NCBI GenBank assembly: GCA_017694295.1 | Contig: JADINA010000036.1 | Coordinates: forward strand, 1-34,829 | Direction: 5' to 3' | Length of the DNA stretch: 34,829 bases | Source: Candidatus Alloenteromonas pullistercoris | Lineage (GTDB): Bacteria; Bacillota_I; Bacilli_A; RFN20; CAG-826 | Shown: one piece after another, positions 22,842 through 23,033 of the stretch | Layout: the number at the start of each line of letters is the position of its first letter | Position numbering within the stretch: the first letter of the stretch is position 1 | Position numbers and translations under genes: made by a program | Notes under the pieces: model-generated | Seen by the model: only the letters and a program-made list of their open reading frames with translations | Told to the model about the DNA's origin: nothing | Database searches by the model: none

Positions 22842-22852
22842 GTTTGCCTTTT

Positions 22853-22998
22853 CTCCTTGTTGGGTGAAGGAACGCCTGTTTTCGGCGCGGTACCATCCTT
22901 CTTCGCCCCGATATGGGGGCGCGCTTTCTTTTCCCTTATATCGCTAGGGGTGGGCGGCGGCATTGCCCGCGTAAGGGGGAGTGGCAAATTCCCGATGC
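22853..22998 (-). promoter_or_regulatory. T-box riboswitch controlling alaS, apparently translational
   Basis: Read leftward, the T-box core AGGATGGTACCGCG (22899-22886) differs at one position from AGGGTGGNACCGCG. A stem III hairpin GCCCC/GGGGC (22920-22905) sits just before it. The antisequestrator forms from GAAGGA (22901-22896) with TCCTTC (22871-22866), plus CGCC (22887-22884) with GGCG (22876-22873), leaving a TGGTACC bulge whose TGGT matches an ACCA tRNA end, as tRNA-Ala has. No T run follows. Instead TCCTT (22871-22867) can pair with the alaS AAGGA Shine-Dalgarno (22858-22854). Stem I appears short, with a possible CCCTTA/TAAGGG base (22977-22972, 22938-22933); I cannot assign the specifier with certainty (candidates include Ala codon GCG at 22944-22942). 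Confidence 0.85.
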
Positions 22999-23004
22999 GG
23001 CGAT

Positions 23005-23033
23005 ATCATAGCCTTCGCTTTAAGCGAAAGGAA
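23005..23033 (-). promoter_or_regulatory. Candidate promoter of the alaS leader
   Basis: TATGAT (23010-23005) with a poor TTCCTT (23033-23028) 17 bases upstream. The -10 overlaps the stop codon of the upstream lipoprotein gene. A palindrome TTCGCTT-A-AAGCGAA (23028-23014) lies in the spacer but encodes the last residues of that gene. Confidence 0.35.

Follow-up and report, generated by a model that had tools for sequence, protein, structure and literature searches.

The alanyl-tRNA synthetase gene alaS in the window, that is, the whole stretch of 34,829 nucleotides of Candidatus Alloenteromonas pullistercoris DNA that was analysed, is preceded by a leader that is best explained as a T-box riboswitch that has an ultrashort Stem I and acts on translation. 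This explanation is considered reasonably probable as a whole. The gene, at 22841-20247(-), encodes an alanyl-tRNA synthetase of 864 amino acids, which matches Pfam PF01411 (tRNA-synt_2c, E 3.2e-176) and PF07973 (tRNA_SAD). Its start is separated by a gap of 164 nucleotides from the stop codon (TGA at 23008-23006(-)) of the upstream gene, which is also on the minus strand and encodes a metallo-beta-lactamase-superfamily protein. All the leader features named in a preliminary description of this DNA map to the minus strand; the features are collected in Table 1.

Table 1. Elements of the alaS leader, in the order of transcription, with their positions in the window
Feature	Sequence	Position	Strand	Remark
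-10-like element	TATGAT	23005..23010	-	From sequence; overlaps the TGA stop (23008-23006) of the upstream metallo-beta-lactamase-superfamily gene
Ultrashort Stem I	GGGA-[AUUUGCCAC]-UCCC	22977..22993 (22993-22990 / 22980-22977)	-	4 bp, 9-nt loop
Specifier	GCC (Ala)	22983..22985	-	In the Stem I terminal loop; followed by A22982
Stem II	GCGG/CCGC, loop GCAAUG	22957..22970	-	Both-sided changes at 1/4 pairs, in 4/26 rows
Stem IIA/B hairpin	CCCU/AGGG, loop AGCGAUAUA	22933..22949	-	Covariation
Purine string	AAGCG	22922..22926	-	Ahead of Stem III; sequence and alignment
Stem III	CGCCCC/GGGGCG	22904..22921 (arms 22921-22916 / 22909-22904)	-	2 nt before A1
Antisequestrator		22866..22901	-	A1, T-box bulge and A2
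A1	GAAGGA/UCCUUC	22901-22896 / 22871-22866	-	Paired in 100% of cells, 26 leaders
T-box bulge	UGGUACC	22895-22889	-	7 nt; invariant in 26/26
A2	GCGCC/GGCGU	22888-22884 / 22876-22872	-	Terminal G-U pair in 26/26
Proposed sequestrator / Shine-Dalgarno (SD)	UUCCUU / AAGGAG	22853..22872 (22872-22867 / 22858-22853)	-	6 bp, 8-nt loop

The identification of the leader as a T-box, made at first from the letters of the DNA, was borne out by covariance models, and the leader at 23002-22865(-) can be taken as a confirmed, real T-box on this sequence evidence. A model, R2, built from 22 leaders of the genus with the window and its three nearest relatives excluded, matches the window at 22865-23002(-) with 106.1 bits (E 3.9e-31); its sole other match in the window up to E 1 has an E value of 0.025. 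Among 395 genomes of the class, 20 were matched by R2 at E up to 1e-15, 17 of them in the family, two elsewhere in the order and one elsewhere in the class. Within the genus, an alaS match is present in 29 of 31 genomes. The Rfam T-box model RF00230, which the preliminary description had suggested running, gave a T-box match at 22865-23018(-) with an E value of 3.5e-6 (421 bases searched), but its 34.6 bits fall under the gathering score of 93, and the window holds no match of gathering level. The genome has five Rfam T-box matches at E up to 10, the best with 85.4 bits, and the gathering cut-off does not discriminate here because none of the five reaches it.

Twenty-eight leaders of the genus were extracted, and a T-box core is found in 27 of them. 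The window is leader L006, and L007 (also L066) belongs to a near relative, Candidatus Alloenteromonas pullicola. The alignment used below has 26 rows: L020, at a contig edge and with no T-box in the 109 nucleotides before the alignment start, was omitted, as was L014, which is at a contig end and comes from the same genome as L035. L032 and L034 are without the 5' end of alaS. In the 26 leaders, 98.2% of the cells of a 23-pair structure are paired, both-sided changes occur at nine pairs versus 1.8 in shuffles, and the covariation of the structure is 0.106 versus 0.047 in shuffles.

Transcription probably starts near 22996, approximately at Stem I, since the -10-like element sits shortly before Stem I. 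A -10-like element is found 6-14 nucleotides ahead of Stem I in 24 of the 26 leaders (4-6 of 6 matches), each being the best match within an 18-nucleotide range, placed without a chance control and misplaced in L013 and L017. The promoter downstream of 22920 that the preliminary description had contemplated did not appear: the sole promoter-like match of the promoter scan is on the plus strand, and TATGAT lies upstream of the whole element. A perfect inverted repeat, TTCGCTT-T-AAGCGAA, is located at 23014-23028, immediately upstream of the -10-like element, and other inverted repeats were seen by eye at the corresponding place in L012, L016, L028 and L033. A base helix, AUAUCGC/GCGAUAU, also drawn by eye, was rejected because it would start inside the -10-like element.

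Stem I had been described as apparently very short and its specifier as not settled. The first point holds: Stem I is a hairpin of four base pairs with the GCC in its loop, and it covaries, both-sided changes being found at three of the four pairs, all of them in L018 (GAGAG/CUCUC). The second is superseded, the specifier now being settled as GCC. The UGCCA of the Stem I loop is invariant in all 26 leaders, and the same genome encodes a tRNA-Ala(GGC) (C30:3721-3793, 3' end ACCA), whose anticodon-loop UGGCA is complementary to this UGCCA and whose ACCA end is complementary to the UGGU of the T-box bulge. The supposed sensing of tRNA-Ala is strongly supported. The tRNA scan covered 23 of 30 loci, with 13 of 43 tRNA hits lacking a locus, and the Ala anticodons found in it were GGC and CGC. 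With the specifier in its apical loop and without an elbow-binding module, Stem I belongs to the ultrashort class as this is defined in the available text of PMC7583486.

Longer forms of Stem I are found outside the genus in L073, L083, L084, L087, L099 and L101, and L080 and L104 have the form GGGA-AAGAA-[hairpin]-GGGCCAC-UCCC (all by eye). The ultrashort form is read from this series of leaders as the loss of everything above the specifier loop. Another genus of the family, g7 (L151, L158, L159, L166), has an ultrashort Stem I built on a different stem, UAAAGGA-[ACYUGCCAC]-UCCUUUG, and its alaS leaders retain a U-tract. An automatic classifier called 44 rows ultrashort, of which only those checked by eye were used; for L017, L021, L029 and L031 it printed a hairpin other than Stem I. 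Rows outside the genus with GUAAUGCCAcc were rejected as ultrashort Stems I, being Stem II hairpins, and L188 is doubtful too.

The discriminator proved to be as first described. The T-box core, AAGGAUGGUACCGCG at 22900-22886(-), has a single mismatch to AGGGUGGUACCGCG, the T-box core consensus; Stem III stands next to the core, and the 7-base bulge lies between A1 and A2 of the antisequestrator. One pair of Stem III has changed from A-U to G-C in L006, L008 and L009. AAGCG-stem III-AA of the window fits the pattern RRRxG-stem III-AA published in Table 1 of PMC7583486. The same source, as far as its available text goes, treats the terminal G-U pair of A2 as a steric sensor. Stem IIA/B, in T-boxes a pseudoknot with an F-box, is read here as a strongly covarying hairpin with a CGUUA-like loop. 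Its covariation is 0.997 versus 0.239 in shuffles (23 distinct rows), 24 of the 26 rows having been entered and L009 and L016 omitted as near-copies. The AGCGAUAUA loop holds an F-box-like CGAUA, which is CGUUA in most relatives.

The claim that the leader has no terminator T run was correct: a U-tract is absent from the window, with zero T in the 25 nucleotides between the A1 strand and the start codon, and a terminator scan of the stretch gave no match in the alaS leader. When a U-tract is defined as at least six T in the nine nucleotides after the A1 strand, one precedes the Shine-Dalgarno sequence in 23 of the 27 T-box leaders of the genus. The four leaders without it, L006 (the window), L007, L008 and L009, form one clade (SH-aLRT 99) in an AlaS tree of 48 rows, made by a quick method with SH-aLRT only, and their sister L011 keeps the U-tract. 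From the family outside the genus 80 regions were requested and 79 examined, L205 having only 22 bases; 77 of these leaders have a T-box, and 74 of the 77 have a U-tract. The leaders of genus g24 (L126-L136) stand outside the U-tract count. L145 and L146, a separate clade, are without a U-tract, and L171 was scored so merely because its stretch ends inside the leader.

The loss in L145 and L146 is independent and has the same outcome. Between the A1 3' strand and the SD, both included, the two leaders have the same sequence, UUCCUUCAAGCAAGAGGAG, although the AlaS proteins of the two genomes (G144, G149) are far apart, by 0.41 + 0.51 changes per column. L141 and L127 have short hairpins with U-rich stretches and are ambiguous. 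With these two so treated, the leaders point to two clear terminator losses, one in the window clade and one in L145/L146; the tree needs four platform changes if both are coded as terminator-less. The alaS leaders L143 (G139) and L167 (G107) have no T-box core at all, and in the AlaS tree the ambiguous G134 has G139 as its sister.

The other four T-boxes of the genome, which precede genes read by eye as pheS, ileS, thrS and valS, have hairpins with U-tracts (also by eye). In three sister genomes, 12 other T-boxes were matched and 10 could be parsed; eight of these have a U-tract by the script rule, and the remaining two (thrS of G029 and G030) have a hairpin and a weaker T-rich stretch. Since the other T-boxes of the genome and its sisters mostly keep the U-tract, it is the alaS switch itself that lost its terminator. 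A leader that is still transcriptional, with its terminator further downstream inside alaS, is highly improbable: there is one minus-strand terminator-like match, at 22818-22800, but it lies in coding sequence, the stretch has two such matches versus 1.1 expected, and the leader is without a U-tract.

Canonical T-box terminators take up antiterminator sequence. In 29 leaders with a U-tract, pairing of the arm that precedes the tract was computed with two partners. With the 5' strand of Stem III and the purine string its mean energy is -11.6 kcal/mol, and -10.7 kcal/mol when partners are exchanged between species (5 of 5000 permutations reach so low a value); with the 3' strand of A1 it is -5.1 kcal/mol, and -5.0 kcal/mol after the exchange (327 of 5000). 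Both permutation tests ignore relatedness. As the arm pairs well with the 5' strand of Stem III and weakly with A1, it may be Stem III, and not A1, that the terminators of the relatives compete for. Examples of the 3' arm (L015, L024, L017) are AGAGCACCC with GGGGUGUUUU and AAGCGC with GCGCUU.

Because no terminator is left, the output is most likely sequestration of the SD by the A1 3' strand. Uncharged tRNA-Ala(GGC) would base-pair at two places, through its anticodon at the GCC of the Stem I loop and through its ACCA end at the UGGU of the bulge. The bound tRNA would hold A1 together and so occupy the A1 3' strand UCCUUC; the SD AAGGAG would be left free and AlaRS would be made. When the tRNA is charged, A1 would open and its 3' strand would pair with the SD 8 nucleotides downstream. 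This translational platform would have arisen by loss of the terminator that most congeners keep. Binding of the tRNA, sensing of its charging and the translational output are what we infer from the arrangement of these elements.

In the window, the SD has a computed accessibility of 0.32 if the A1 3' strand is free; when that strand is absent the value is 0.78. The mean difference is 0.34 in the six clearly terminator-less leaders versus 0.09 in 32 leaders with a U-tract (Mann-Whitney p 0.002, not corrected for relatedness; L014 was in the computation but outside the 32-row comparison). Several results stand against sequestration. L128 and L144 have a U-tract, yet their differences, 0.57 and 0.59, are as large as those of terminator-less leaders. 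L007 switches little, from 0.42 to 0.51 (difference 0.09); this leader, from one of the three nearest relatives, has a weak SD pairing, the feature whose covariation the preliminary description had proposed to check. The complementarity of the A1 3' strand to the AAGGA of alaS, noted from the start, does exist as UUCCUU/AAGGAG, but it is not above chance: among 59 ribosome sites of the genome alaS ranks 52 for complementarity to the A1 strand, and the median site is better. This complementarity is generic, because the purine-rich 5' strand of A1 makes its 3' strand an anti-SD. Shuffled linkers give an equally large switch in 165 of 200 cases for the window and switch similarly in the six clear leaders; closeness therefore suffices for the computed switch. 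Without tRNA, moreover, the open state of the window is computed to be favoured by 2.9 kcal/mol (-15.6 versus -12.7 kcal/mol). The open state is the more stable one without tRNA in five of eight leaders, and the closed state is favoured in L009, L141 and L127.

In L141 (G128), a 9-bp hairpin, CCUUCAAAG/CUUUGGAGG, begins in the A1 3' strand and holds the SD. It is specific to its linker, being more stable than in 200 of 200 linker shuffles, and L141 is the sole such leader. The output of L141 is ambiguous, because the leader might also form a weak hairpin with UUUUUCUUU.

Folds of the full leader pair the SD of the window with Stem I and not with A1, a further point against sequestration by A1. 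In a different OFF state, the specifier hairpin would pair with the ribosome site (UUUGCC..CUCC/GGAG..GGCAAA) and anticodon binding would free it. In tRNA-free folds this pairing has a probability of 0.61 in the window and 0.62 in L007, and at most 0.21 in 22 leaders of the genus with a U-tract. It is, however, 0.00 in L008 and 0.05 in L009, spacer shuffles reach it in 28 of 300 cases for the window and 90 of 300 for L007, and its duplex energy ranks 9 of 59 for the loop and 21 of 59 for the whole Stem I; charging, besides, would not be sensed by Stem I pairing alone. Masking of the ribosome site by Stem I was rejected as the main mechanism on these fold, shuffle and rank results, and the arrangement is considered very unlikely. 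Translational action through the A1 3' strand, as the preliminary description had it, keeps in its favour a clade without terminator, a conserved structure and the U-tracts of the other four T-boxes; the generic nature of the pairing and the favoured open form remain against it.

The same two unfavourable results, an open state more stable without tRNA and a generic SD pairing, would also be expected of a relic, in which loss of the terminator left a T-box without regulatory effect and a constitutive alaS; the T-box has been lost altogether in the family leaders L143 and L167. The rate of change of the leader argues otherwise. In three within-clade pairs, Stem I plus Stem II are 90-93% identical and the discriminator 83-94%, and the fourfold-degenerate alaS sites of the same pairs are 53-57% identical. 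The leader is still under selection, because 83-94% identity is retained versus 53-57% at fourfold sites. Compensatory changes are found in A1 of L007, where an A-U pair became G-C, and in Stem III, where the change is common to L006, L008 and L009. Judged by these substitutions, the leader of the window clade is not a decaying element and is still selected; that it is a relic is unlikely.

A leader that is selected yet without terminator, and whose SD pairing is thermodynamically weak, could also bind tRNA-Ala and act on mRNA stability or processing, by way of a nuclease site that the discriminator would cover or uncover. The SD is, however, within reach of the A1 strand, and an output of this kind is thought decidedly unlikely.

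The terminator-less alaS clade hints at how one kind of T-box turns into the other. It is proposed, tentatively and with slightly less than even confidence, that the T-box classes interconvert in one step, the loss of the terminator putting the SD beside the anti-SD-like A1 3' strand, and that the ultrashort Stem I came first in the lineage of the window. The SD-like 5' strand of A1 would make the 3' strand a ready-made anti-SD, and no fewer than two conversions would have taken place in the family, in the window clade and in L145/L146, and perhaps as many as four, with L141 and L127. In the lineage of the window, the ultrashort Stem I would have arisen in T-boxes still bearing a U-tract. If true, this order would speak against a general need for a long Stem I for timely capture of tRNA in transcriptional T-boxes. 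The available text of PMC7583486 states that a long Stem I is in general a requirement of transcriptional T-boxes, that translational ones come mostly from Actinobacteria and that the class which evolved first is unknown. The alaS leaders of one family span long to ultrashort Stem I and U-tract to none. A side-by-side assay of sister leaders could put to the test both the order in which the changes occurred and the kinetic case for a long Stem I.

According to the accessible part of PMC7778990, the class II sequences of TBDB were found by searching Actinobacteria, and class I hits with a truncated Stem I were searched with the class II model as well. A literature search of titles and abstract openings found no ultrashort-Stem-I or translational T-box of Bacillota, an earlier mention being possible. 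The translational T-boxes of Actinobacteria (ileS; Nocardia farcinica, Mycobacterium) have an intermediate or ultrashort Stem I, as far as PMC7583486 and PMC10651847 are available. As in the window, their Stem I is short, lacks the tRNA-elbow module and carries the specifier in its apical loop, and Stem II, Stem IIA/B, Stem III and the antisequestrator are present; their output is SD masking, which is presumed here for the window. Unlike them, the window is from Bacillota and concerns alaS and tRNA-Ala, not ileS and tRNA-Ile; its Stem II is a 4-bp hairpin in which no S-turn was recognised, and a U-tract is retained by close congeners that share its Stem I. The alaS T-boxes of the genus and family that have a U-tract share with the window the gene, the GCC and the discriminator, and within the genus the ultrashort Stem I; they differ in a terminator-like 3' arm and, in many cases outside the genus, in a longer Stem I. 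The alaS T-box of Clostridium acetobutylicum, of the canonical transcriptional kind, has a long Stem I. It has alaS, tRNA-Ala and the T-box in common with the window and differs in its terminator/antiterminator output, as given in the available text of PMC4695836.
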